A DNA stretch of 49,848 bases from a virus: positions 1-49,848 of IMG/VR virus record IMGVR_UViG_3300020470_000017, one strand, 5' to 3'. A program made the translations under genes and the position numbers. This document shows positions 5,195 to 41,217 of this stretch, piece after piece (the stretch's first letter is position 1; each line of letters begins with the position of its first letter). The notes under the pieces are model-generated. The model did no database searches and had not been told where the DNA came from. It worked only from the letters and a program-made list of their open reading frames with translations.

Positions 5195-6316
5195 TCATAG
5201 TTCTCTCTTAAGAGCCCTAATGGTGTCACTTTCCGCATTGTAGCGGTCTATGTGCTGCTTGATTGTCTTCCTGACAGTGCCCTTCGCATGAGGCTGTGAG
5301 CCGTCATTGGGATAGCGTATCTGTATCAGGGTGGCCTGTCCGTGCTTGTTGTGTTCTGCACATTCAGGTTGTGAACAATATCCAGTAGCATAAGGTTGCC
5401 TGTGATGGCCTGCTCCGCACTTTCCCCCCTTGTTCAAGGGCATACCGTCTTCGTGCCATATCGCGTGTTTGTCTTGCGCGTAGAACAGTTCTTCGATTCT
5501 TAGAGCCTCTTCAAGCCCTTTCTTGTTGCCTTTCAACCACTCCCCAATCAGTCTGTCGATTTCCCACTCTTTCGAGAAGGGGCACCACATACAGGAACTC
5601 TTGTTGACAGGTGTTCCGTCTCCTCGAAAATCCCAACCCAAGTGGTCGAGAATCTCAAGGCACTCCTTCCTGTTCAATTTGAGATCCATCAGGGGGTAGT
5701 GATACTCATGTCCGAGAATCTTCTTTCCCTTTGTGTCTGATTTTCGTCGGTTGGCTGTGAATCGGTCTGAGCGACCCTCTTCCTCAAGCTCTATGCCGAG
5801 GTACCAGTGCTTCGTGCATACTTCGTGGTTGCCGAATCTCTCATCCGACCACTTCTGCATTACTTCGCCCTTGAATCTCATGCTGCAGACATGCCCCCTT
5901 CCCGGCATTAGCGGGAAGGCGCGACCATCTGTCAGCCATTCGTATATCGTGTAGGGCGTTTTACGCTTCTCGTATTGCGTCTGTTCCTCCTTAGGTAGGA
6001 GTCGCAATTCCTTTTGTCTGCCAAGCAGTTCACCTGTTTCCTTGTGGTAGTAGCGATTGTAATGGTGCCTGACTACGACAAGCTCAACGCCTGCCTCAGC
6101 ACACCTCTTCTTCGCATACTCAATGTTCTCATAAGTCTCCTCCCATTCGCTGCCAGGGTCGGCGAACACTGCCGCATCGACTACGGGGAATGCCTCATCG
6201 AGTTGCTCTCGAGTGATTCCCAGGTAGTCTGCAGCCTTGTCCCTTTCCAAGTGCATGGCAAGTAGCGCGGACGAATCCACGCCACCTCCGAATGCAAGTA
6301 TCTTCGGTCCATTCAT
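5195..6316 (-). CDS. PAPS reductase-like / adenine-nucleotide alpha-hydrolase protein
   Basis: 373 aa. The N-terminal PP-loop A-F-G-G-G-V-D-S-S-A (residues 8-17) is the ATP-pyrophosphatase signature of PAPS reductases, tRNA thiolases and DndC. Cys-rich segments follow (CMWCPF near residue 260, later Cys-His clusters), possible metal sites. Such enzymes are frequent in phages, often near methyltransferases, where sulfur transfer to nucleic acid is suspected. DndC-type phosphorothioation is possible, but no other dnd genes are visible. Confidence 0.75.
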   Translation of the reverse strand: MNGPKILAFGGGVDSSALLAMHLERDKAADYLGITREQLDEAFPVVDAAVFADPGSEWEETYENIEYAKKRCAEAGVELVVVRHHYNRYYHKETGELLGRQKELRLLPKEEQTQYEKRKTPYTIYEWLTDGRAFPLMPGRGHVCSMRFKGEVMQKWSDERFGNHEVCTKHWYLGIELEEEGRSDRFTANRRKSDTKGKKILGHEYHYPLMDLKLNRKECLEILDHLGWDFRGDGTPVNKSSCMWCPFSKEWEIDRLIGEWLKGNKKGLEEALRIEELFYAQDKHAIWHEDGMPLNKGGKCGAGHHRQPYATGYCSQPECAEHNKHGQATLIQIRYPNDGSQPHAKGTVRKTIKQHIDRYNAESDTIRALKREL

Positions 6317-6356
6317 GTTCAGTGCCTCCCATAGGGAGTCTTTGATAATAGATCGG

Positions 6357-6770
6357 TCATTCGTCGGCAATCGCTAAATCTAGCCATTCTTCAAAACATT
6401 CCTTATCGTATTCGTGTGCTATATCGCCAGAGCCTATTTCCACCCTCACGGGGTAGTCCTCTCGACCCAAAATAGGGACTGATGCTTCCTTTTCCTCGAA
6501 AATAACCAACTCAAACCATCGAGTATAGTAGGTGTCCCAGCCATCCTCGTTATTCATTATCCTATGGAGGGCTTCATCATCCTTGATTCCCCTCTCCTCT
6601 AGCCATTGTATTCTCCCAGAGGCAGATGAGTCTCGGTCTTTCCATCGATCACCGTTCGGTGCAGTCGTTACAAAGTCTCCAGTTGCCCAAATCTCATAGG
6701 AGTATTCGTTGTTCCTCTTACTCGCCACAGGTCCAGTATCAAACCAAACCGCGTCTTTCCGATTATCCAT
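6357..6770 (-). CDS. 137-aa acidic, Trp-rich protein
   Basis: Begins MDNRKDAVWFDTGPVASKRNN. It is rich in Trp, Asp and Glu and contains no Cys pair or recognisable active site. Motif-led. A 40-bp gap separates it from the PAPS-like gene. Function unknown. Confidence 0.7.
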   Translation of the reverse strand: MDNRKDAVWFDTGPVASKRNNEYSYEIWATGDFVTTAPNGDRWKDRDSSASGRIQWLEERGIKDDEALHRIMNNEDGWDTYYTRWFELVIFEEKEASVPILGREDYPVRVEIGSGDIAHEYDKECFEEWLDLAIADE

Positions 6771-7023: not shown

Positions 7024-7926
7024 TTAGCCCATAGCCTGTGTGAGCAGGTCGCGCATCACAGGCGGGCATACGGCATTTCCTAGTCCAGCGACTGAGCTAG
7101 TCCTCCCTATGTCGGGAATCTTGTAGGAGTCCAGGAATCCCATTGCCCTGCTTATCTCCCTGACTGTCAGTTTGCGTGATTGGTCGCCATCGACCAGTTT
7201 CCACTGGTCTTTGGTGGTAATCGTCCGTATTGGCTCATGCAGAGGAACTCCCCTGTGTCCAGTAGTCTGCTGAGACAGGAATGTGCGTCCGCACTTCTCC
7301 CTTCCAGCCTTGAACCGAATCTTGTCGCCCTTGCAGGCATTGGAAATCGGCTCCCAGCCTTCGTCAGTGTCCTCCATGATGTCCATAAATGCTGGTACTT
7401 CTGTTGCCTTCTCAAATTGCAGGTTTGGCTTGCTTCCGAGCCTACCTACTACGAACAACCGATTTCGAAGTTGTGGAACTCCGTGATTCGTCGCAGTCAG
7501 TATGTGCTCTTCCACCTCGTAGCCAAACGCTCTCATTGACCCCAGCCAGTTGCCGTAAGCCTCCCAATTCCTGAACTTGGGCACATTCTCAACGAAAACC
7601 CATTCTGGGCGCTTCATATCTAGGCACTGGATAGTAGCCCATGCTACTGCTCTCTGTGCTTCGTGATAGCGTCTCCTCCTGGGTTGGCTCGCTGTGCTGT
7701 GCCCCTGACAGGCAGGGGATGACATGAGGAAGTCGAAGTCTGGTACATCGTCGATGTAGTTAGTCAAGAAGACATCCTCGCATGCGTGCTGGGTCGTAGG
7801 GTTATTCAATTCGTGAACTTGGATCGCCAACTCATTGTGGTTTCCAGCCCACGCAATCTCATAACCAGCCATCTTCGCGCCCTCGGAGGAACCTCCGAAG
7901 CCGCAGAATTGGTCTATTCCTTTCAT
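7024..7926 (-). CDS. C5-cytosine DNA methyltransferase
   Basis: 300 aa. SAM-binding motif I is present (F-C-G-F-G-G-S-S-E-G at residues 7-16), the catalytic loop reads S-P-A-C-Q-G-H (Cys about 73, in place of canonical PPCQ), motif VI E-N-V follows near residue 110 and the C-terminal G-N-A-V-C-P-P matches motif X. Compact for the family. It probably methylates the element's own DNA, which would protect it from host restriction. No restriction nuclease adjoins, so it is likely an orphan. A second C5 enzyme lies at 12238-13233. Confidence 0.9.
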   Translation of the reverse strand: MKGIDQFCGFGGSSEGAKMAGYEIAWAGNHNELAIQVHELNNPTTQHACEDVFLTNYIDDVPDFDFLMSSPACQGHSTASQPRRRRYHEAQRAVAWATIQCLDMKRPEWVFVENVPKFRNWEAYGNWLGSMRAFGYEVEEHILTATNHGVPQLRNRLFVVGRLGSKPNLQFEKATEVPAFMDIMEDTDEGWEPISNACKGDKIRFKAGREKCGRTFLSQQTTGHRGVPLHEPIRTITTKDQWKLVDGDQSRKLTVREISRAMGFLDSYKIPDIGRTSSVAGLGNAVCPPVMRDLLTQAMG

Positions 7927-10565: not shown

Positions 10566-11453
10566 TTAGTCGAACCTCGTAAGGCCCGTTTCAATGTTCT
10601 CCCTTTCCAACTCAATGCAAACGGCATTTCTGCCTGTTTTCAGGCAAGCCTCAGCCAAACCCAGTGCGCCAGCGAAGGGGTCTAGGATTAGATCTCCCTC
10701 CTCTGAACCGAACTGTAGCATATCTGCTAGAATCTCAGTTGGCTTCTCTGTCTGATGGAGCTTGGTTCTCGGGTTGGGTCTTGGTGCTTCCAGTATGTCA
10801 TGGACATAGTGCTGTGGATTCGGCTTCGTCTTGAATCCGCCCATGTTGTGGGGCTTTCCTTTGGAATAGAAGTAGATTGGTTCGTATCTCGCCCTACCTC
10901 TGTAGCCCATTCCAGGTATTTTCTTGTCCCATATCCATGTCCTGTTGTACCAGAACCCTACGCTCATAGCCAGTTGCTTCTGACGGTAGTTGTACTCGTC
11001 CGTGTCTCCATACTGGGTGCGTGCGGCAGCAGGCATGAACACGAACATGTGTCCTCCTGGCTTCAACACCCTGTATAGCTCCCGCAAGATTTCCTCGTCG
11101 AGGTCTTTCGTCTTGAAGTCCCAACCTCCCTTCTGGTTTCTGCTCCTGGTCGTGCCAGTCTGCATCTGCTTGTCTACTGCAGTGTAGGGAGGATCGGTGA
11201 TAATCTGGTCGAAGTGGTCGTCGGGAAATGTCGGTAGGACATCCCATGCGTCACCGTCCATGATTAGAGCCTGGTTGTCACCGCTATGAGCGATGTAGAC
11301 TCCTCTCTCTATCCTTTGGAAGCATCTTCCTATGTTTTCATTGAGTCTACCACGAATAGTGGTAGGCAGTTCGTCTTCGAAGTTGTGGTAAATCACCTGC
11401 AGCGGTTTTGGGTGCTCCAGGAACTCTACCAGCCTTTCTCGTAAGCTCTTCAT
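10566..11453 (-). CDS. N4/N6 (beta-type) DNA methyltransferase
   Basis: 295 aa. The catalytic D-P-P-Y (residues 87-90, inside I-I-T-D-P-P-Y) precedes the SAM motif D-P-F-A-G-A-L-G (about 255-262), the circular order of beta-class adenine-N6 or cytosine-N4 enzymes. L-H-Q-T-E-K-P near 235 is the typical motif before it. R-V-L-K-P-G-G-H-M-F-V-F fits motif VI. The N-terminal 55 residues are a helical extension. The true start is the motif ATG although the frame stays open upstream. Confidence 0.88.
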   Translation of the reverse strand: MKSLRERLVEFLEHPKPLQVIYHNFEDELPTTIRGRLNENIGRCFQRIERGVYIAHSGDNQALIMDGDAWDVLPTFPDDHFDQIITDPPYTAVDKQMQTGTTRSRNQKGGWDFKTKDLDEEILRELYRVLKPGGHMFVFMPAAARTQYGDTDEYNYRQKQLAMSVGFWYNRTWIWDKKIPGMGYRGRARYEPIYFYSKGKPHNMGGFKTKPNPQHYVHDILEAPRPNPRTKLHQTEKPTEILADMLQFGSEEGDLILDPFAGALGLAEACLKTGRNAVCIELERENIETGLTRFD

Positions 11454-11460
11454 GTTCAGT

Positions 11461-12042
11461 TCAAAGGCAGTCAAGGACTTCTTGGACATACTGCCCCATA
11501 GCAGTAGTCGCTCTTTCGTCCATAACCCATTGCTTGTCGGCGTTGGGTTCCACAATTGGGTTTGCCTTTCTGCACATTGCGAAGTATCGTGGGCCTTCCG
11601 ACCAGTCTCCTCTGCCATCCGGCGTTCCAGACACCTTGTAGAAGTGGTCCGTGTAGTCGTATTCCATGTATTCAATCATCCTGAATCCGGACACCACATA
11701 TTCGCATTCTGTTCCGTTGTCTCCCTTGTGGTTGAATGTCTCATTTCTCATCCAAACCTCAGGAGGCAGAACTTCTAGCATATCTGTGTATTTCTCCTCT
11801 TCTATCTCGACGATTTTGCTGTATTGTTTCTCAAGTTGCTGGCTGATTAGATCGTCTGCCTCCTTGAGACTCATTACCTCTGCGTCTTCGTATTTCTCTA
11901 GATACTCGGCCACTGGGGTTCCGTAAATTGTCTCCCCTCCGATAACCAGGTCTGCTGTCTCTGACGAGTCATCCACTTTGATTACCGCGACGATATTCGT
12001 CTGGCCTCTCCTGTAGATGACTTGTATGTCATTCTCATCCAT
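11461..12042 (-). CDS. 193-aa protein of unknown function
   Basis: Begins MDENDIQVIYRRGQTNIVAVI. The N-terminal strands are followed by a charged helical middle (E-E-K-Y-T-D-M-L) and an aromatic-rich C-terminus. The stop TGA directly abuts the next motif. No family recognised. Confidence 0.7.
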   Translation of the reverse strand: MDENDIQVIYRRGQTNIVAVIKVDDSSETADLVIGGETIYGTPVAEYLEKYEDAEVMSLKEADDLISQQLEKQYSKIVEIEEEKYTDMLEVLPPEVWMRNETFNHKGDNGTECEYVVSGFRMIEYMEYDYTDHFYKVSGTPDGRGDWSEGPRYFAMCRKANPIVEPNADKQWVMDERATTAMGQYVQEVLDCL

Positions 12043-12237: not shown

Positions 12238-13233
12238 CTAGTGGATCAATGGCATTACTGCCTCGGCAACCGCCTTCGCCACAGGGACGCTGACTGCATT
12301 CCCAATCCCTCTGTATGCGTGCTTCTTATCCGACAGGATGAAGTCTGCAGGGAATCCCTGCAGATTCGCATACTCCCTAATCGAGTAGGGAGTCAAGGTG
12401 CCGTCCTCTCGCTGGACCATCGTTGTGCTTTGGTCGTGAGCGTAGTGTGCCATGCAAGTGTTGCCTATCACATCCCTGCCGATTCCCTTTATCGAAGGCC
12501 TATCCCTGTAGACTCCGTTGATTCGGTTGTGAATGTATTGTGGCATTACCTTGCCATTGAGAGGAGCTACATCTGGGTTTTCCTCGAGAATACCCCCTAT
12601 GGTGTGCGTGTGTTCCAGGGGCTTTCTCCTCACTGTCGGCTTTGTCACTTGCCTGTTGATTCCAACGACAAACAATCTAGCCCTGTTCTGTGCGATTCCA
12701 AAATCCCTCGTATTCAAACACCCATAGGTGAATGTGTAGTATCTCCCCAGTCTGCCTCCTTGTATCGGGCATGGCGTGTTCCTTAGCGTCTCCATTATGA
12801 TGCGACAACCCGCGAGGTCTATCACATTCTCAACTACAAACGCTTGAGGTTGCGTGTCTGCAACAAATCGTCTGTAGTGCAAGAACAAGTCCCCGCCTTC
12901 TTCTGCATAGCGAGAGTAGTCCCTCTTTGGTTTAGCATCCGAGTGCCTCTTTCCACCAATTGCGGCGGCTTTGCTGTATGTCACGCAAGGAAAACCTCCG
13001 ATTATCACATCTGGGAGTCCGAACCTGTCCACTAAATCATCAGTGGAGAGCAGGTGTATCGATTCCTCTATCAGTGTCGTATCAGGGAAGTTAGCCTTGT
13101 GCGTCGCTGCCTGGTTGGGATCTAGTTCGTTCGCAAGCTGGATGTTGAATCCCGCTTGCTTGAATCCCAAGTCCATACCGCCTATTCCTGAGAACAAGGA
13201 CCAAGTGTTTGGTCCGTTTGCGTTCATATTCAT
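12238..13233 (-). CDS. C5-cytosine DNA methyltransferase (second copy, different type)
   Basis: 331 aa. Motif I S-L-F-S-G-I-G-G-M-D-L-G-F (residues 12-24), catalytic G-G-F-P-C (Cys83), E-N-V near residue 145 and the C-terminal G-I-G-N-A-V-S-V-P-V match a complete Dcm-like enzyme. Low similarity to the enzyme at 7024-7926 suggests different target sites and separate acquisition. Start is the first Met of the motif. Confidence 0.92.
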   Translation of the reverse strand: MNMNANGPNTWSLFSGIGGMDLGFKQAGFNIQLANELDPNQAATHKANFPDTTLIEESIHLLSTDDLVDRFGLPDVIIGGFPCVTYSKAAAIGGKRHSDAKPKRDYSRYAEEGGDLFLHYRRFVADTQPQAFVVENVIDLAGCRIIMETLRNTPCPIQGGRLGRYYTFTYGCLNTRDFGIAQNRARLFVVGINRQVTKPTVRRKPLEHTHTIGGILEENPDVAPLNGKVMPQYIHNRINGVYRDRPSIKGIGRDVIGNTCMAHYAHDQSTTMVQREDGTLTPYSIREYANLQGFPADFILSDKKHAYRGIGNAVSVPVAKAVAEAVMPLIH

Positions 13234-13244
13234 GTTCAGTGACC

Positions 13245-14273
13245 TTACAGAGCCAACTTTGCGGCTCTCATTGTTGCCTCGCTCCTCGCACCACATTGAT
13301 TCGGGCATGAGGGGCAGTCAGTTACGCACCCAATAACATGGGCTTCCGTCTCTGTAAGGGCGTGTTCATCATTGAAATAACGGGGTCCACCGTAGACTTT
13401 GCCTCGATTCACCTTAGCAGAACCATCATCGTTCTTAATGCCCATCTTGAGCGCCAAGTATGACTTTGGGTTCTTGAATTGCGACTCATCCATGTGCATC
13501 ACTCTAGGATCTGTTCTGTTGAATCTCCAGGGAGTCTCAATAATCCTAATTTTGTGCTTGATGGAGAGGTCATAGAATGCCTCTTGCCCATCGTGTAGAA
13601 TCGCACCCATGCCTTCTTCGAGTGGTTGGTCCTTCTTCCAGGGGAATGTGCAAATGCGCATGTATGTGCATTCCTGTGCATTCATGTCCCTGTAAGTGTC
13701 TAGAACATCAATGATTCCAGGAACCCTGGAGTTGCTTTCGTATTCCTCTGTCCAATCGTAGCCTGCTATGACGCTCCAGTGGAATATCGCCCCAGATAGG
13801 GCGAGTCTTGCCAACTGCTCGTCTGATGGCATCTTCCAGAACTTGGTGATTATCACCATACGGCTACCTGTCATAGCGACAGTCTCCGCTGCTCTGGTCG
13901 TTAGCTCCCAGTCGTACGAGGGATCTCCCATAACCCCATTCCTAATCCATCTCTTGTCGATTTCATGCTCAGAGACCCTCAGTAGGTGTCTCATCGAATC
14001 CGTCTGAAGCTGAGTGGGTATCAGAATCTGCGATTGTGGAGAGTCAAACTTGATTGCGTGATTCAGAGTTCCCTGTGAGCCCTCTGCGTAGCAACCAAAG
14101 CATCCTCCTTTGCATCCTTTCACGGTGTCCATGATGTTCTTATCCGTCTTTCCATTTACTCCCAACCTAATTATCTTGGTTGGGAACGGGGTTAGTTCTC
14201 TCCCCGCCAGTGTGTGTGTCTTTGACCTCTGTTTTGGTAGAACTGGTAGTTCATACTCAACTGTTAGTCTCAT
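13245..14273 (-). CDS. Radical SAM-like protein with C-terminal Cys cluster
   Basis: 342 aa. C-K-G-G-C-F-G-C (Cys54, 58, 61) is a C-x3-C-x2-C site for a radical-SAM 4Fe-4S cluster, followed by Y-A-E. A second group near the C-terminus (C-V-T-D-C-P-S-C-P-N-Q-C, about residues 316-327) could hold an auxiliary cluster. It is related in style to the phage Gp37/Gp68 (DUF5131) group. It sits among methyltransferases, so nucleic-acid modification is a reasonable guess. Confidence 0.72.
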   Translation of the reverse strand: MRLTVEYELPVLPKQRSKTHTLAGRELTPFPTKIIRLGVNGKTDKNIMDTVKGCKGGCFGCYAEGSQGTLNHAIKFDSPQSQILIPTQLQTDSMRHLLRVSEHEIDKRWIRNGVMGDPSYDWELTTRAAETVAMTGSRMVIITKFWKMPSDEQLARLALSGAIFHWSVIAGYDWTEEYESNSRVPGIIDVLDTYRDMNAQECTYMRICTFPWKKDQPLEEGMGAILHDGQEAFYDLSIKHKIRIIETPWRFNRTDPRVMHMDESQFKNPKSYLALKMGIKNDDGSAKVNRGKVYGGPRYFNDEHALTETEAHVIGCVTDCPSCPNQCGARSEATMRAAKLAL

Positions 14274-17823: not shown

Positions 17824-18705
17824 TTACACAAGTGCTTTCTGTTGCAGATTTAGCATTGCGCTTCTCATGGTGTCGATTGCCTCTTCGAGTGAATCTTCGC
17901 ACCCATCGGCTAGTAATGCCATGCAATTGAACACCATTTTCCAGATTTCTTGATACATCTCCATTTCCCGAGGGAGCTTGAAGAACAGAATCCAGTAGGT
18001 TCCATGCTCATTCACACTCTTCTTGGTTCTTGTGCCGTGCAGTGGGATCACTGGGAACTGAGCCATCATCTCATTAGTGCTGATGCTCAGGTCACACCAC
18101 TTGAAGACCAGTGTTCCGAATGGCTTGAGCACTCTCCAGCACTCATTGAAGCCTCTCGCCACATCATCCTTCCAGCCGTGACCCAGTTTTCCGTATTTCT
18201 GCAGCATAATACCGCCCTTCGCTTCCATGATGTGAGGTATGTCCCACATTATGTGCCAGAAGCTCTCATCCTCGAACACCATGTCTCGATAGTCGCCGAT
18301 GATGTCCGGCTCTACCGACCAACCTGGCTGCAGTTTGATTGTGCCAGGTTCTTCCTCTCTGATGTCCATGTAAAGGGCAGCCGCGTGTTCTTTGTCAAAC
18401 CATATCGAACGGGCTCCACAGCATGCATCAAGCAATGCCTTGCCGTCCAGGTTCACTTGCACTCTCCAATATCCTCTTTCCAGTCCTGTCTTGTGTATTC
18501 GCCCCTTACCCTTTAGGGTCTGCAGGGCGTTCCTTACCTTGTGTTGCCATTCAGGAGAGTCAGCCCATCCGGTGTCACAAACTACTTCGTTGTCACACTC
18601 TTGAGGGAATGCCTCCTGAACATACTCATAAATGACCTCGATGTGATGAAGTCCGTCTGGGACGCACTTCATGTTCGTCTGGGTCAAAACCTTCTGTAGG
18701 CTCAT
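17824..18705 (-). CDS. Class I methyltransferase-like protein with N-terminal wHTH-like region
   Basis: 293 aa. Residues 1-100 are helical with a probable wHTH. A-L-L-D-A-C-C-G-A-R (about 92-101) resembles SAM motif I, and W-D-I-P-H (about 155) stands where DPP(Y/F) is usual. W-R-V-L-K-P-F-G-T-L-V-F-K-W matches the motif VI strand. Substrate unknown. Motif-led start. Confidence 0.7.
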   Translation of the reverse strand: MSLQKVLTQTNMKCVPDGLHHIEVIYEYVQEAFPQECDNEVVCDTGWADSPEWQHKVRNALQTLKGKGRIHKTGLERGYWRVQVNLDGKALLDACCGARSIWFDKEHAAALYMDIREEEPGTIKLQPGWSVEPDIIGDYRDMVFEDESFWHIMWDIPHIMEAKGGIMLQKYGKLGHGWKDDVARGFNECWRVLKPFGTLVFKWCDLSISTNEMMAQFPVIPLHGTRTKKSVNEHGTYWILFFKLPREMEMYQEIWKMVFNCMALLADGCEDSLEEAIDTMRSAMLNLQQKALV

Positions 18706-20379: not shown

Positions 20380-21297
20380 TCAAGAGAGCTTTCCAAATCT
20401 ATCGAAGATGAGGCTAGCGTCCTTGAGGTTGATTGTTTCCGTTGCTACAAGTAAGAAGCACATCGCATCCAGCATGTCTGCCTGGGATGTTATCAATCCC
20501 TTGCTGCTTAGAGTCTCGATTACCCCTGGTATGTCCTTCGTGTCTTCCACGGCAGCAACCGTAGTGAAGAACTTCCAAAATTTCGGATGGATCAATCGTC
20601 CATTGCTTCTATCTGATGGTGCATAGGGCGGGTTTGCCACTATGACATCTAGGGACTTGTCTGGTATTCTTCCAGATGCTTCCCGGAACGAGCCCTCTCG
20701 AAGTCTTCCGGAACCCTCGTGGTCGCAGTCCTTACCGTGTTGGCAGGGTTCATCGACATGGCAGGTTTCCATGCATTCTTCATCCTCTGGCTCGACCTCC
20801 TCGGTCTCCTCAGTCTCAGTCTCCTCAGTCTCCTCAGTCTCAGTCTCCTCAGTCTCAGTCTCCTCAGTCTCCTGGGTCTCTTCGACTCCAAGATATTCGT
20901 TGAAGATAGAGAGACAGGTTTCTGGCGAAGCCCAATCGCTTCCGGATGACTCGATTTTCTCGTCTGTAAATACCAGACTAGGTTCCATGAAGTATTCGTG
21001 GAACTCGAAGTCATCATCAGTCGGGTTGCCGCCTGTATCGAAGCCCATGTAATTCAGTTCTGGGAGAATCAACGCCGCCCAAGTCTCATCGATAATCTGT
21101 GCAGTCAGCTCTTCGCTGTGCTCATCAGAGTCAATTTCCTTCAATTGAAGGATCGCTTCCTTCATCAGTCTAGCCTTTAGATTCATCAATTCTTGTGTGT
21201 TTTCAGTGTCTTTTGCGCCTAGCGCAACAAGCATTCCGAAGTAGGGCCTAGTAATTTCAACTACGAACTCACTAGGGTCCTTGCTTTCGTTATTCAT
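20380..21297 (-). CDS. Acidic-linker protein with methyltransferase NPPY motif
   Basis: 305 aa. A helical N-terminal half, then a Glu/Thr repeat linker (about residues 139-170), a Cys/His-rich patch and V-I-V-A-N-P-P-Y-A-P (about 223-232), the catalytic motif of N6-adenine methyltransferases. No clear SAM motif I precedes it, so it looks like a truncated or rearranged methyltransferase. Motif-led. Confidence 0.6.
   Translation of the reverse strand: MNNESKDPSEFVVEITRPYFGMLVALGAKDTENTQELMNLKARLMKEAILQLKEIDSDEHSEELTAQIIDETWAALILPELNYMGFDTGGNPTDDDFEFHEYFMEPSLVFTDEKIESSGSDWASPETCLSIFNEYLGVEETQETEETETEETETEETEETETEETEEVEPEDEECMETCHVDEPCQHGKDCDHEGSGRLREGSFREASGRIPDKSLDVIVANPPYAPSDRSNGRLIHPKFWKFFTTVAAVEDTKDIPGVIETLSSKGLITSQADMLDAMCFLLVATETINLKDASLIFDRFGKLS
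20797..20882. repeat. Imperfect CTCAGTCTC repeat array (Glu/Thr linker)
   Basis: A run of CTCAGT and CTCCTCAGT units encodes, leftward, an alternating Glu-Thr-Glu-Glu linker in the 20380-21297 protein. All unit lengths are multiples of three, so the array can vary without breaking frame. Confidence 0.85.
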
Positions 21298-25938: not shown

Positions 25939-27258
25939 TTAGACCTTCATTGCTCGACGCTCATGCTCAGAGGGAAATCTTCTCTTCCTCTGTACCATGT
26001 GTGCTGTCTCCTCGAGTTTCTTCCCTTCTGCCTCCACTCTAGCGGCGGCATCGCGTAGGGCCTGTGAAGCGGTCAATGCGTCCTCAGCCAATTTCATCTG
26101 TCTCTCCTTGTGTTCTGGAGTTCCGACGATGTAGCTTAGTGCCAAACGAACTTCGCCGTCAGAGTCATGTGCCCTGTTCATCTCGAAGTCTTTCTTCCTC
26201 AAAAGAGGAGTAGACACAAGTGCCGTCCGTGTTCCACACTTAGAGGTCAATTGCCTATAGCCTATCATTACCTGGTGCTTTTCGCCCCAGGCCTCGGCTT
26301 CGATTGGTACGGGCAAAGGCTCGCTCATATCGGGAGCCTTTGGAATCCTCGTAGTCGTTGGCTTCTTCTTCTTCTTCTTAGTCAAGTGATTGTTGTGCGT
26401 CTTGCTCAAGGCTTTCAGTTCCTCAACTGTGAGGTCCTTGTCGCTGTTCTTGATAGCGTTGCACATGTTGCACACCCTCTTGCCTTGCTGCTGCCAATTC
26501 CTGAATCTCAGGTGGCACGCGCCCCTTGTCAGGACTGCTTGCTTGTGAGCCTCCAGTGTCTCGGTTGCTTGGCGGTTCCAGCGGATGGTCCTCTCCCTCA
26601 AGAACTTCAACCGATTCTCGGCTGCTACCCTCTCCTTCTCGGCTGCTATTCTCTCCATCTCAATCCTACCAATCAATTCGACTGAGTAGTATCTAATTGC
26701 TTCCATGGAGAAGTTGCAGTTCCATTCCTGTTCGGGTTCTGGTTCCGGTTCTGGTTCGGGTTCCACTTTCACATGTGGGTGTATGAACTTGACATTCATC
26801 GTGTGAGTTCGCTTGTGTCGCAAGTCCGGGGTTCCGTCGGCCTTTAGTGGCCTTGCGTCGGCATCCCAGATTATCCTTGCTTTTGCTAACCTGGCTGTGA
26901 CGGCGTTTGCTAAGCCGTAAATATCATTCAATTCAATCCTAGGATGAGGGGTTGCCCTCTTCCTGAATGCTCGGATTACACATCGAACCTTCGATTTGAG
27001 TTGCTCCGCTGATGGGAGTTCCTTCTCAATCTTGGCTGCTTGTGCATCTTTGTCCTTTTCTCTGAGTGATATTGCCTGATCAACTTTGTCGAGCATACCC
27101 AGTAGGTATGCATTACAAGCGTTCTTAATCTGATTACTGAGTATCAACCTTTTCTCTGCGATAGAGCCCGGTTTAATTTCCCGGGTTTTCTTCCCTACTA
27201 AGGGAAGGTCGGCGATCATCTGTATCATCATCAAAATTGCATTTCTAAAATCGTGCAT
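25939..27258 (-). CDS. 439-aa coiled-coil protein with Glu-Pro repeat
   Basis: A helical N-terminal domain, an E-P-E-P repeat (about residues 167-177), a long coiled coil (R-I-E-M-E-R-I-A-A-E-K-E-R-V), a C-N-M-C pair near 270, a poly-Lys patch and an Arg-rich C-terminus. It looks like a DNA-associated structural or replication-accessory protein. The motif ATG is at 27258; the frame is open to 27351, so a longer form starting just after the upstream stop is possible. Confidence 0.72.
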   Translation of the reverse strand: MHDFRNAILMMIQMIADLPLVGKKTREIKPGSIAEKRLILSNQIKNACNAYLLGMLDKVDQAISLREKDKDAQAAKIEKELPSAEQLKSKVRCVIRAFRKRATPHPRIELNDIYGLANAVTARLAKARIIWDADARPLKADGTPDLRHKRTHTMNVKFIHPHVKVEPEPEPEPEPEQEWNCNFSMEAIRYYSVELIGRIEMERIAAEKERVAAENRLKFLRERTIRWNRQATETLEAHKQAVLTRGACHLRFRNWQQQGKRVCNMCNAIKNSDKDLTVEELKALSKTHNNHLTKKKKKKPTTTRIPKAPDMSEPLPVPIEAEAWGEKHQVMIGYRQLTSKCGTRTALVSTPLLRKKDFEMNRAHDSDGEVRLALSYIVGTPEHKERQMKLAEDALTASQALRDAAARVEAEGKKLEETAHMVQRKRRFPSEHERRAMKV

Positions 27259-27355: not shown

Positions 27356-29191
27356 TCACTGTGAACGATGTCTCTGGTGGCCGAACTTCTCTCTGTTCGA
27401 GATAGCCTCTGCCGTTAGATCCTCAACATACATTCCAATGCATGGCTCACCTGCGAAGGTAGTCATCTCCAGTTGTAGGCAACCGTGGTTGTGTCCGTAC
27501 TTACCAGCGAAGTTGAGCTTACCATTCCCCTTCGTCTTGCGACTCTTTGAGTTGGTCTTTGCCCATGCTGGCAGGTTAGTATCGTCCGTCACACCAGATG
27601 ATGTACCGCGTACTCCGTACACCCATGCCCATGGCTTGGATAGGGAGTGTTCCCGTAGTGTCTGCAGGTTCTCGATGAAGGATGTCTCGTCCGCTGAGAG
27701 CGTTCTGCCCTGCTTTTGGAACTGTAGCATCCTGACTATGTTCGGCATAATGCCCGAACCAGCCTCGACCTGCCTCTCCTCAGAGGCAATCATGTTCATC
27801 ATTGATGCAGAATCACCCTGCATTGCGCATAGATCGACCCAGACTTTGATAATCTCCAGTTTCTTTAGGTCTCTAACATTGTCAGGAGTCAGGGTGACTA
27901 GGGCTGATGGGCCTCTCGGCCTCCTTCCCTTCTTGCCGCCCTTGAACCATTCTCGCTCAAGCTTCTTGGCTTTTCTCCTTTCAGTGCTTCGCGCAACATC
28001 TGTTGGGCTCTCCGGTATGAATGCCTTCCACTCTACTTTGTGGTCGAAGGGGCTTTGTCCAACAATGCCAGCAATCTGCTTTCTGCAATAGTTGAAGTCA
28101 AGTTCCTCGAGCAGCATTATTGCGGCGGTTCCCTTGTTGCGGGGTAGTCCGTGCTTCGAGTAAGGAACAAACTTTGTCTCCTTCCCCTTGAATCCGTTCA
28201 CCTGCCTGGCTACCGTATCGAACGGTGTTGCCAAAGGCAAGAGATTGAATCCGGAAAGGACCCATGCCCTAAACTCGCAAACATCTGCGAACCATCTGTG
28301 TGTGTTTTTCTGATAGTAACCGAAAGTTTGGTTCAAGAACGCCTGGGCTGGAGGGTTAGCGGTGAGGTATTTCCTCTCCTCTCCCCTTGGAACTCTCTTG
28401 GTGTTCCACTCCAGCTTGAACATCCCCGATGGGGGGAGTCTAGCGTCATCAACCGACTTCGGTGCCACTGTGAAGTCATACAGGATGAAACTGTCGAATG
28501 TGAGACCTTCGGTGATAGCCCCGATGGTGAATCCCTCGGGTGCTCTTTCTTGGATCTCATCCACTAGGCGGTCTACGAGTTGAGCCGTGAACAGCCCGTC
28601 GTCGTTTCGCGTCTTCCCAGTGTCTTCGTCAATCATGTTGTCTGCCATGCGGTTCAAAATACCTGGATCGCCGGAAATATCGATTCCAGCGAATGCTGCA
28701 GCCATTGACATCCCCGCTGTTGTAGTGCCTTCCTTCTTCGCATCCGTTGCGTGAACAACTGCGTGCGAGAAGCTAACACTGCGGATTATCTTTCCTGTGT
28801 CATCAGCATAGTCTGGTTCTGCTCGGGCAATAGCCTCCATAACTGGACCAATCGCCTTCGACCACACTTTACTGTGTCCGATGGTGATTTTTGCATTTAC
28901 TCCGTAGAGGTTTGCTGTCCCTGGTTCTCTATGTGCTCCGAAGTTTACGAAATGCTGTACGCAATCCGCGAACCCTTTGCTGCTTCTGTTCTTCGTTTCT
29001 TCAGTGTGCCATGACATTAGTGCTGTGTCGATGTTGGATCTAAGCTGTCCCTTAGTGCCCGTTAGGGGCAAAGGTTCCGCTAGTACACCTGAGTCGTTCA
29101 AGACTCGGATGTCTGCCTTCATCTCTTTCACTGTCATGTCTGTCTCCTTTAGGGCACCTCCTTCGAGGTACCTCTCTGCAATGTGTTGCAT
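27356..29191 (-). CDS. 611-aa protein with SAP-like N-terminus, unknown function
   Basis: The longest product of the left array. Residues about 20-58 (T-V-K-E-M-K-A-D-I-R ... T-G-T-K-G-Q-L-R) resemble a SAP DNA-binding motif. A basic patch (K-K-G-R-R-P-R-G) lies near 455. No polymerase, helicase or nuclease motif is evident. Its place next to the non-coding hub and the strand switch makes an origin-binding or initiator role attractive but unproven. Motif-led. Confidence 0.7.
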   Translation of the reverse strand: MQHIAERYLEGGALKETDMTVKEMKADIRVLNDSGVLAEPLPLTGTKGQLRSNIDTALMSWHTEETKNRSSKGFADCVQHFVNFGAHREPGTANLYGVNAKITIGHSKVWSKAIGPVMEAIARAEPDYADDTGKIIRSVSFSHAVVHATDAKKEGTTTAGMSMAAAFAGIDISGDPGILNRMADNMIDEDTGKTRNDDGLFTAQLVDRLVDEIQERAPEGFTIGAITEGLTFDSFILYDFTVAPKSVDDARLPPSGMFKLEWNTKRVPRGEERKYLTANPPAQAFLNQTFGYYQKNTHRWFADVCEFRAWVLSGFNLLPLATPFDTVARQVNGFKGKETKFVPYSKHGLPRNKGTAAIMLLEELDFNYCRKQIAGIVGQSPFDHKVEWKAFIPESPTDVARSTERRKAKKLEREWFKGGKKGRRPRGPSALVTLTPDNVRDLKKLEIIKVWVDLCAMQGDSASMMNMIASEERQVEAGSGIMPNIVRMLQFQKQGRTLSADETSFIENLQTLREHSLSKPWAWVYGVRGTSSGVTDDTNLPAWAKTNSKSRKTKGNGKLNFAGKYGHNHGCLQLEMTTFAGEPCIGMYVEDLTAEAISNREKFGHQRHRSQ

Positions 29192-29226: not shown

Positions 29227-29388
29227 TTAATCATCCAGGTTTAGTGGATTACCAATGTTGGCTTTGTTCCAATATACTGATTCAACAAGAAGCAGCATGT
29301 CAAAGAAACCCTTCGTCTCTTCCGGGTAGAAGAGGCGAAAAAGGGTCCTTATTTCCCTTCTGGATAATTTTCGTTTTGAAAAAATCAT
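29227..29388 (-). CDS. 53-aa basic small protein
   Basis: MIFSKRKLSRREIRTLFRLF at the head, acidic tail ending L-N-L-D-D. The start ATG belongs to the T-variant ACTTAACATG (29386-29395). It is the outermost leftward gene, directly beside the duplicated RNA element. Confidence 0.6.
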   Translation of the reverse strand: MIFSKRKLSRREIRTLFRLFYPEETKGFFDMLLLVESVYWNKANIGNPLNLDD

Positions 29389-29410
29389 GTTAAGTTGTCA
29401 TTATTATGTT

Positions 29411-29489
29411 GGAAACCAGGGGAGGGTCGTAAAGCCTGAACTTGCTATACGACGGGGCCTGACCAACCCCAAGCGAGTCCCTGGTCTCC
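29411..29489. ncRNA. Structured RNA element, copy 1
   Basis: GGAAACCAGGG (29411-29421) pairs with CCCTGGTCTCC (29479-29489). Inside are a GTCGTA/TACGAC stem and a GGGG/CCCC stem. Copy 2 keeps all three stems while the last loop differs, which points to selection on RNA structure. It sits between two ACTTAACAT elements. Strand of transcription is unclear. I do not recognise the family. Confidence 0.65.
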
Positions 29490-29538
29490 GTACGGCTATG
29501 ACGGACCGAAAGCGGGGAGAAAAATTTGAAAATACATG

Positions 29539-29577
29539 AAAAAACAAAAAAAACCCGCATCTCTCGCTGATAAGTAT
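29539..29577 (-). terminator. T-rich tract after a short repeated segment (minus strand)
   Basis: Reading leftward, ACTTAACATA is followed by CTTATCAGCGAGAGATGCGG and then a run of T broken by one G. Archaeal termination uses T-runs, so a very short transcript starting at the motif and ending here is possible. The CTTATCAGCG segment repeats at 29716-29735. Confidence 0.4.
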
Positions 29578-29599
29578 GTTAAGTTGTCATTATTATGTT

Positions 29600-29680
29600 G
29601 GAAACCAGGGGAGGGTCGTAAAGCCTGAACTTGCTATACGACGAGGGGACTAATCAACCCCTAGCGAGTCCCTGGTCTCC
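29600..29680. ncRNA. Structured RNA element, copy 2
   Basis: Offset 189 bp from copy 1. The outer stem is 29600-29610 with 29670-29680; GTCGTA/TACGAC and GGGG/CCCC stems are kept, although the loop between the G and C runs changed (CCTGACCAA to ACTAATCAA). Flanks diverge quickly beyond the element. Confidence 0.65.
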
Positions 29681-29739
29681 GTGCGGGGAAGAAATAACTA
29701 TGGCGATGAAACCCCCGCATCTCTCGCTGATAAGTATGG

Positions 29740-30574
29740 TTAGTTGTCCCTTGAGTAGAGGGATGAATTACGAGCCTCTCGACTGCCGTTCCGATTCAAA
29801 CATTGAGATCCAATCGTTTTCTGCTTTGGAAATGTGTGCGCACACGCTTCCTTGCATAATTCGCAATTGGAACTCTGAGACACGCGCGTTTCATGGATTT
29901 CTCCAACTACGCCACTCCGCTTCTCTGTTTTCCTCTTCCTGTCACTCAACCGCGACCTCTCAGCCATCGGTTGTCTTGAGTTGTAGTGTTGCTACACTCG
30001 CAATCCCAGCGATAACCGAGACTTCAAACATCCGAAGGGATGGAAGTCTCTTTCTCGCTTCAAAGTGGCCTTTCGGCCTGATGATTGAAGGCATTGTTAC
30101 CATTTACTCGTAAAGAGTTGTGGCTTGGTATAATTTAACCATTTTACCATCCTGGACCTTCAATCGAAAAAATGCCCTGTCTCGGGCCTGACGAGGTTTC
30201 GCTCGCTCCGTTTACCCTCTCGGGCCTCGGTGTAGTTTAGTTGGGTCTCTCGACCCGATGCATACACACTACGAACGCTTGCTCGTAGTCTCTCTCAATT
30301 GCGAGAGTCACACAGTCCTTGCGTTGTGTGGGTGCATGGTAAGTATGGTGAGTAGTTACTTCACAACCGAGCACTTGGCTTTCCCGTAGGAGTGCGGTAA
30401 GGCAAGTAACAAATAGCCTATTTTCCACTGAGCGTCAGGACTTTGTTCTCCCGCTGCTGAACTCAAAATTGTTCGCAGTAGCCGGGGCCTGCTTGCTCGC
30501 TGGGAGCTGAGGTCGTGCGCTCCTGTCACGGCCACCTTTGACAGTGGTCTTGTGCTTTCCACTGGAGTTATGTG
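29740..30574. other. Non-coding stretch with hairpin cluster
   Basis: I see no convincing gene here. An AT-rich patch lies at about 30126-30150. Four adjacent hairpins occupy 30243-30331: GGGTC/GACCC, CTACGA/TCGTAG, CTCTC/GAGAG and CACACA/TGTGTG. CTCGGGCCT occurs twice nearby (30181 and 30219). It may be part of an origin or an untranslated RNA. Confidence 0.5.
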
Positions 30575-30634
30575 AATCAAATCAAATCGAATCAAATCAA
30601 ATCGAATCAAATCAAATCGAATCAAATCAAATCA
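30575..30634. repeat. 15-bp iteron array AATCAAATCAAATCG
   Basis: Four near-perfect tandem copies of AATCAAATCAAATCG, itself built from AATC/AAATC subunits. It sits between the tRNA gene and the hairpin cluster, close to where gene direction switches, which fits an origin-binding iteron. No spacers, so not a CRISPR array. Confidence 0.85.
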
Positions 30635-30646
30635 CTGAAATAACTC

Positions 30647-30656
30647 CATGTTAAGT
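30647..30656 (-). promoter_or_regulatory. ACTTAACATG directly after the tRNA 3' end
   Basis: The CCA of the tRNA runs into CTTAACATG, so the motif and the tRNA end share bases. No gene follows; the frame closes after four codons. A second copy without ATG (ACTTAACATA, about 30773-30782) precedes the tRNA. Confidence 0.6.
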
Positions 30657-30732
30657 GGCGGGTCATGCAGGGTTCGAACCTGCGGCCTTCCGGTTAAGAG
30701 CCGGACGCTCTACCTGACTAAGCTAATGACCC
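30656..30732 (-). tRNA. tRNA-Lys (anticodon CTT), CCA encoded
   Basis: A full cloverleaf: 7-bp acceptor GGGTCAT/ATGACCC, D arm with TAGTCAGGTAGA, anticodon stem CCGG/CCGG with loop CTCTTAA (CTT), and T arm GCAGGTTCGAACCCTGC. Discriminator G followed by encoded CCA. No intron. Serves AAG codons. It lies downstream of the RNase P RNA candidate on the same strand, so both may be transcribed together and the tRNA matured by that RNA. Confidence 0.97.
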
Positions 30733-31097: not shown

Positions 31098-31400
31098 TGG
31101 CGAATAGTCCCTTCCTCTGCTCCATGAGGGGAGGGGATGTACGACTTACTGTTTCCAGGCGTTCGGACCTCGGGACAACTATCCCAAGTGCTACCCGAAC
31201 TAGGCTGGTTCGCTTCCAGCCCATTTGTCGCACTACCTTCTACGGGGGCAAGAGGACGCTAGTCCTCGAAGCTTTGCGAATCCCGTAGGTGTTCTGCCGG
31301 TGGAGCTTGCTTCCCTAGATCCACTCGACGCTTTGCCTCGCGTCGCTGTCCAGGGCGCTCCGTGAAGCCCCTCAGGGCAACCGGCTGAGGGCTATTGCCC
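31098..31400. other. Highly structured non-coding block
   Basis: Dense inverted repeats and no plausible gene. Examples on the minus strand: CTACGGG/CCCGTAG enclosing GAGGAC/GTCCTC, GGCTGG/CCAGCC, GTTCGG/CCGAAC, CGACGC/GCGTCG and an outer CCGGT/ACCGG. It may be one or two further structured RNAs, or a 5' extension of the RNase P candidate. I could not match it to SRP RNA. Confidence 0.5.
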
Positions 31401-31406
31401 TCTGGT

Positions 31407-31944
31407 ACATAGGCCATCGGCCCTCTAGATGAGGGACGAAAGCCACTGTATGTTGAGTTTTGAGGGATATTTTCCCTCTTCTACCATATAGGCCATCGGC
31501 TCTCTAGATAGAGAGCAAATGGCATTTTTTGCTTGTTCCAGGGGCGTTAGCCCCCGCTTACACTACATAGGCCATCGGCCCTCTAGATAGAGGACATAAG
31601 TTAGCCATACATAGCGTAATTACTGCTACATAAGCCATCGGACTACATAAAGTAGCCCAAAATCCACCTTTTCTAGGCTTTCTTGGCCCCTACTTCGTGG
31701 AGATCCCAGACACCTGGGCATGCCAGAGCTGATACATCCTACCATAAGTTAGTAATAAGTAGCGTTAATTCTGTCCTATATGCCATCGGACTACATAAAG
31801 TAGCCCATCAACAGCGTTTTCGATTCTTGCTGTAGGCGTTTGTCAGCGATCTGATGCCTGGGTGTGGCTCGAGCTGACTATTCTTGATGTAAGTTAATGC
31901 CATATAGGGACATTACTGCCCTATACGCCATCGGAGTTTATGAC
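31407..31944 (+). repeat. Array of six GCCATCGG elements, five with covarying hairpins
   Basis: GCCATCGG occurs at 31413, 31492, 31571, 31634, 31782 and 31927, each after an ATA-rich hexamer such as TACATA. The first five are followed by a short hairpin whose arms change together: CCCTC/GAGGG, CTCTC/GAGAG, CCTCT/AGAGG, CTAC/GTAG and CTAC/GTAG. Spacings are 79, 79, 63, 148 and 145 bp. The array ends at the TFB gene promoter. It could be repeated small RNAs or operator/leader elements. Confidence 0.75.
31937..31944 (+). promoter_or_regulatory. YWWANGAC-type box (TTTATGAC) for the TFB gene
   Basis: Lies 21 nt before the ATG at 31966, matching the spacing of the other boxes of this class in the right half. 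It overlaps the last GCCATCGG element. Confidence 0.5.
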
Positions 31945-40395: not shown

Positions 40396-41217
40396 ATGAC
40401 GATGACGGCTTTCCTCCCATTTGACCGCAAGCCCCAGAAGACGATAGCCTCGATGATATGCAAGTATAGCAACATGGTGACTAAGCCAACCACACAAGCA
40501 GAGTGGATGTTCCAGGGACCTGTCAAAAGTGGCAGGGGCTCAATGCTAGTCCAAATAGTCGATTTCAGAGACTTTCTGACAACCGACGAAAGAGAGTGGG
40601 CTGACGATGTTGGTTGGGATCACAACTGGGCTATTGCAGTAAGCGTCTCTCACAAAAGGAGAACAGATGAGGAATACGCATTCTGGCATGCATTTACAGT
40701 AGTTATGCAAAATGCCTACGAAGGCAATGGTTTAGCAAGCAATGAGATTTGGCTGTCTGCTGATGAAGAGGGTTTTCCGACAACATCCTTCACCGTAGAG
40801 GAACTGTTGCCAGACCTTATCTCAAGCGAGGCTGATGATGTTTCTGTGAGTTCAGTCGAACCGTCAAACGATCTAAGGCAACCCGAACCAAGTGAGCTTC
40901 CACCCCCACCACCGAGAATACGCGGTGCTATGCAATCACAGCCGGAACCCGAACCGGAACCCGAACCAGAACCGGAACCCGAACCAGAACCGGAACCCGA
41001 ACCAGAACCGGAACCGGAACCCGAACAGGAATCTGACGACGATTTTGATTGGAGTATTGAAGATGAAGACGAGGACGAACCCCCTCAACTCAGACTAGTG
41101 TCTGTGGACTTCGGCGATGAGGACGACGAAGAGGACGAAGACGACGACGAAGAGGACGAAGACGATGATGACTGGGACATCGAAGAAGAGGGTTCAGATG
41201 CTATCACCGAATGGTGA
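40396..41217 (+). CDS. Acidic repeat protein with Glu-Pro linker, 273 aa
   Basis: An ordered N-terminal domain (about 1-150), a long E-P repeat (about 183-212) and an Asp/Glu tail (about 236-265). The acidic extension recalls DNA mimics or rigid linkers of halophilic and marine viruses. It overlaps the GTPase gene by 7 bp. Confidence 0.75.
   Translation: MTMTAFLPFDRKPQKTIASMICKYSNMVTKPTTQAEWMFQGPVKSGRGSMLVQIVDFRDFLTTDEREWADDVGWDHNWAIAVSVSHKRRTDEEYAFWHAFTVVMQNAYEGNGLASNEIWLSADEEGFPTTSFTVEELLPDLISSEADDVSVSSVEPSNDLRQPEPSELPPPPPRIRGAMQSQPEPEPEPEPEPEPEPEPEPEPEPEPEPEQESDDDFDWSIEDEDEDEPPQLRLVSVDFGDEDDEEDEDDDEEDEDDDDWDIEEEGSDAITEW
40941..41033. repeat. GAACCC/GAACCG hexamer array (Glu-Pro repeat)
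   Basis: About fifteen near-identical hexamers encode alternating Glu-Pro. It parallels the shorter E-P run in the 25939-27258 protein. Confidence 0.9.

Follow-up and report, generated by a model that had tools for sequence, protein, structure and literature searches.

In the window (the whole stretch of DNA analysed here, 49,848 nucleotides of an IMG/VR record), two near-identical, strongly folded putative small RNAs adjoin each other at 29411-29489 and 29600-29680. These twin copies are the last units of a noncoding hub and lie upstream of a 29-kb operon on the same strand. The relatives compared with the window were G003 (IMGVR_UViG_3300028196_000013), found by a pair-pattern scan with the start motif described below (69 copies, on one strand only), and, from protein searches, G012 (IMGVR_UViG_3300017746_000001), G014 (IMGVR_UViG_3300020446_000001) and short contigs. 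The border between hub and operon is laid out as follows:

27356-29191, minus strand: 611-aa open reading frame directly after the hub; start ACTGAACATG; weak homologue in G012 (28% over 143 aa)
29192 to about 31896, minus strand: noncoding hub containing the element, 2.7 kb; counterparts in G003, G012 and G014
29379-29384, minus strand: U-tract T6, downstream of copy 1
29388-29395, minus strand: spacer ACTTAACA, after unit 1
29411-29489, minus strand: three-stem core of copy 1; P1 of 11 bp, P2 at 29454-29470, P3 at 29426-29453 with loop AAGUUCAG
29512-29558, minus strand: potential 5' hairpin of unit 1, GCGGG/CCCGC with a T-rich loop; pairing by inspection
29539-29553, minus strand: U-tract T8GT6, downstream of copy 2
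29577-29584, minus strand: spacer ACTTAACA, then ACTTATCA, between unit 2 and unit 1
29600-29680, minus strand: three-stem core of copy 2; P1 of 11 bp, P2 at 29644-29662, P3 at 29615-29642 with loop AAGUUCAG
29682-29719, minus strand: 5' hairpin of unit 2, TGCGGGG/CCCCGCA; predicted fold, loop unlike that of unit 1
29737-29744, minus strand: heptamer-like spacer ACTAACCA, then ACTTATCA, before unit 2

In the minus-strand fold, both cores have the outer stem P1 (GGAGACCAGGG/CCCTGGTTTCC, 11 pairs) and two inner hairpins, P2 with 4-6 pairs and P3 with 6+3 pairs, and the P3 loop is identical in copy 1 and copy 2. An earlier note on this DNA had described two copies in which an outer stem of 11 bp is combined with two inner stems, and this was borne out with exact coordinates; its distance of 189 bp holds as the start-to-start period, while the gap between the cores is 110 bp. 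All 11 pairs of the outer stem form on the minus strand, one of them as G-U. On the plus strand this pair becomes an A·C mismatch, so the structure is strand-specific. The minimum free energies of the cores (-39.9 and -37.5 kcal/mol) were below that of every 80-nt tile of the window's minus strand (830 tiles), and the folding z-scores were -3.8 and -4.3 on the minus strand compared to -1.6 and -2.6 on the plus strand. The RNA strand of both cores is the minus strand, and a plus-strand reading was dropped because pairing and fold bias are specific to the minus strand. The earlier note had also considered a packaging or replication structure. A DNA structure of this kind would suit an intergenic site between divergent gene blocks where the GC skew changes sign nearby, although the skew also follows gene orientation. 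Since only the RNA of one strand completes the outer stem, and since the fold bias is likewise strand-specific, we regard this explanation as very improbable.

Comparison of the two copies showed that all five substitutions fall in unpaired columns (p ~0.018) and that none of the 24 base pairs varies. The description of stems kept while a loop has changed is literally true, but with no paired column varying there is no covariation, and conservation of structure under change is weaker than it sounds. The cores are duplicated as had been proposed, and the repeat proved larger than stated. Both units share a 5' block, ACTTATCAGCGAGAGATGCGGG, which opens a GCGGG/CCCGC hairpin whose loop is wholly changed between the units, and a 3' tail ending in ACTTAACAT; unit 2 keeps the 5' stem around the changed loop. 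A recent neutral duplication of a functionless, chance-stable sequence would be consistent with the missing covariation and with the lack of a homologue in the relatives. It would sit poorly with cores that are the most stable of all tiles tested, with spacers and U-tracts common to both copies and with differences that avoid paired columns, and we consider it improbable.

The units are flanked by U-tracts as well as by spacers. On the minus strand, T-runs of at least six are absent from the 29-kb operon and number four in the hub, three of which lie beside the twin copies. In archaea, U-tracts are established as transcription termination signals (PMC8716108).

Besides the twin copies, the hub contains a tRNA-Lys, a permuted-RNase-P-like RNA and further conserved RNAs. 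The remaining features at and beyond the hub are:

30656-30732, minus strand: tRNA-Lys (CTT), its CCA adjoining ACTTAACAT
31105-30795, minus strand: permuted-RNase-P-like RNA; counterparts at L051 12245-11945 (minus), L052 12175-11760 (minus) and possibly L017 10090-10650
31897-32886, plus strand: TFIIB-like gene diverging from the hub; weak TFIIB similarity

ARAGORN and the Rfam tRNA model find this tRNA-Lys as the only tRNA in the window, and a tRNA or tRNA-like identity for the element was rejected accordingly. The hub RNA at 31105-30795 resembles an RNase P RNA in circularly permuted form. Archaeal RNase P, on GUGAACAGAAGGUGGGCUAUG, was the one Rfam match at E<=10 in that stretch; it scored 9.7 bits (E 0.034 for the whole record), far under the gathering score of 84. 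CCGAGGAAGUU, the other P4-like strand, is invariant in three records and sits downstream instead of upstream. Folding z-scores of this RNA were -4.9 in the window, -2.7 in G012 and -1.8 in G014; an Rfam RNase P scan of the corresponding stretches in G012 and G014 gave no match, and a literature search found no natural RNase P RNA described as permuted.

Other parts of the hub also recur in relatives. A 47-nt stretch at 30192-30238 is 100% identical in G012, while the proteins common to both are mostly 50-80% identical, and is probably a conserved hub RNA ending near the T6 at 30172. A second conserved hub RNA, GGCCGTGACAG...CCTTACCGCAC...CCTACGGG, is found at 30345-30560 (minus strand) and at L051 8110-8250 (minus strand); it had no Rfam match in the window, and its folded parts were no more stable than shuffles. 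A GATTT-type array lies in a hub hairpin at 30574-30633. Between the hub and the TFIIB-like gene, at 31395-31940, are at least four repeats with a CCGATGGC core, which may be either origin iterons or RNA units; the counterpart arrays are at L017 9533-10000, L051 12556-13171 and L052 12530-13137, and the G014 repeats have a different core, CCTGTGGCACTATGC.

The TFIIB-like gene (cyclin repeat E 8e-5, just under the Pfam cut-off; zinc ribbon E 0.003) diverges from the hub and suggests an archaeal host. Apart from a serine integrase, no viral hallmark gene was found among the scanned proteins, so the designation as a virus rests on the IMG/VR classification. Four DNA methyltransferase genes lie in one operon (7024-7926, 10566-11675, 12238-13308 and 17824-18705), accompanied by a gene at 5195-6370 that resembles phosphoadenosine phosphosulfate reductase. 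Short tandem repeats occur inside several open reading frames (1-75, 20768-20893, 26724-26764 and 40922-41041), the last being an 18-bp-type coding repeat.

The operon genes share an unusually uniform start: 44 minus-strand ATGs carry exactly ACTGAACATG, compared to none on the plus strand. The stretches with heptamer starts are:

274-29191 of the window, minus strand
26809-60302 of G003, plus strand
L050/L051, minus strand
L052/L054, minus strand

The heptamer directly before the ATG is lineage-specific (ACTGAAC; ACTGACC in G012; ACCGCTC in G014), the full start motif being ACTGAACATG in G003, ACTGACCATG in G012 and ACCGCTCATG or ACCACTCATG in G014. It occurs 35 to 69 times per record stretch; counts of both strands, where made, placed it exclusively on the operon strand. 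The distance from the upstream stop codon to the motif is typically 0-6 nt, and a search for a promoter signal ahead of the heptamers revealed no strongly conserved position from -45 to -7. Heptamer variants also separate the hub RNAs, the twin copies included, and adjoin the 3' ends of the tRNA-Lys in the window and of the tRNA-Arg in G003. Sense-strand enrichment was seen in three of the four hubs, namely the window (7 with at most one mismatch vs 1.3 expected), G003 (18 vs 2.5) and G014 (4 vs 0.6), each with no antisense occurrence; the G012 hub stretch tested had no enrichment (1 vs 0.95).

The heptamer raises an antisense model, in which the P3 loop AAGUUCAG would pair with CUGAAC of the ACTGAACATG start and control translation or processing of the 44 genes. 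The uniform starts on one strand are consistent with such a target, and a 6-mer complementary to the motif is held by only 6 of 2383 predicted minus-strand loops, the P3 loop being the only one in the hub. The complementarity was noticed after the fact, however, and GUUCAG is absent from the hub RNAs of G003, which uses the same heptamer. G012 and G014, with ACTGACC and ACCGCTC, also have no matching anti-motif loop, and an anti-heptamer loop coevolving with the start heptamer was looked for in the relatives and not found. We therefore consider this pairing unlikely, as the matching loop is missing from relatives whether their heptamer is the same or another.

Searches with the element itself returned only the element. 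It had no match in Rfam 15, either at the gathering threshold or at E<=10, and none in pattern searches of phage, plasmid and IMG/VR sequences. A covariance model of the two copies, a check that had been proposed from the sequence, recovered only these two from the window and the relatives G003, G012, G013 and G014, and conservation of the structure in relatives was not borne out. The relatives carry unrelated RNA units at the corresponding hub position. In G003 a stem-loop array with 11-bp and 9-bp stems lies next to tRNA-Arg, in the same place as the twin copies; its units are separated by ACTTAACA-ACTGAAC, and their arms are constant and their centres variable. Three-way-junction look-alikes in G012 (L051 9040-9135 and 7990-8110, minus strand) were rejected, with z-scores of 0.27 and -1.43 no better than shuffles. 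An H/ACA guide RNA has a hairpin with an internal pocket and a K-turn, and ACA immediately behind the stem; in the element AACA follows P1, and inspection of P3 revealed neither a K-turn nor a K-loop signature.

The position of the twin copies between hub and operon also fits, by analogy, a cis-acting two-step attenuator or antiterminator made of tandem structures and U-tracts, like put/nut or tandem leader riboswitches. A U-tract follows each copy, T6-T8 runs lie near the hub end, next to the operon, in each of G003, G012 and G014, and the downstream 611-aa frame has its weak homologue in G012; a protein query with this frame found no relative among viral contigs. Against such a leader, the relatives have no twin structure before the operon, copy 1 is set apart from the 611-aa frame by about 190 nt and one more start heptamer, and the G003 array is unlike a leader. 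A tandem riboswitch would place a conserved aptamer before orthologous genes, and none was found in G003, G012, G013 or G014. We consider an attenuator doubtful, though the strongest of the alternatives.

Collectively, these results suggest that the element is probably a pair of twin small noncoding RNA units released from the hub transcript. Judged from their predicted folds, the two appear to be genuine RNA genes that belong to no known family, and the earlier proposal of a small RNA of unknown family agrees with the minus-strand specificity, the RNA-gene neighbours, the heptamer spacers, the U-tracts and the lack of an Rfam match. Its suggestion of a processing substrate is plausible because the heptamer spacers delimit the units. 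In the proposed mechanism, the tandem-duplicated units, each ~150-190 nt and minus-strand encoded, would be delimited in the hub transcript at the heptamer spacers (ACTNAAC-type) and at the U-tracts, and the product would be a stable RNA that combines a three-way junction with a variable 5' hairpin. Transcription, processing and any trans-acting function of the twin units are inferred. In this model the function would most likely be operon regulation, either in trans via the conserved P3 loop or via 3'-end formation at the hub border.

The element alone is an orphan structured RNA pair, and its setting matters more. The large marine DNA elements with an RNA-gene hub form a small group, and in each member the operon genes are marked by its own invariant start heptamer, which is also found around the hub RNAs. 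If the heptamers are RNA-processing or translation signals, an archaeal-type virus would have an unusual code for gene expression, of which the twin RNAs would be natural candidate parts. A more far-reaching and quite tentative possibility is a virus-encoded RNA expression system, in which the lineage-specific heptamer would mark both the starts of nearly all operon genes and hub RNA ends, a permuted RNase P RNA would reside in the hub, and the twin RNAs would be substrates or regulators, possibly via the GUUCAG loop.

Several known RNAs resemble the twin units in part. The put RNA of phage HK022 and the nut sites of lambda are antitermination sites, and like them the twin element has two copies of a structured RNA at the edge of an operon, close to terminators; unlike put/nut, with their bacterial hairpin terminators, it has U-tracts and an archaeal-type context. 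The pRNA of phi29 is a small viral RNA organised around a three-way junction, as is predicted for the twin element, which differs in its tandem heptamer-bounded units, has no Rfam match and showed no packaging context like that of phi29. We regard put/nut RNAs, phi29 pRNA and tandem riboswitches as analogies, not memberships. GOLLD and ROOL, large ornate RNAs of phages, are encoded next to tRNA genes. With the twin element they have in common that a structured noncoding RNA and a tRNA are neighbours in a viral genome, whereas the twin units are heptamer-delimited, shorter than 200 nt and without an Rfam match at the gathering threshold. The closest actual counterpart, in arrangement and not in sequence, is the G003 array. 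It differs in sequence and inner fold and is missed by the covariance model of the element, and the structural similarity is only general. The arrangement is alike: multi-copy stem-loop RNAs beside a hub tRNA, bounded by ACTTAAC/ACTGAAC, each with a 9-11 bp stem starting GG and a variable centre.
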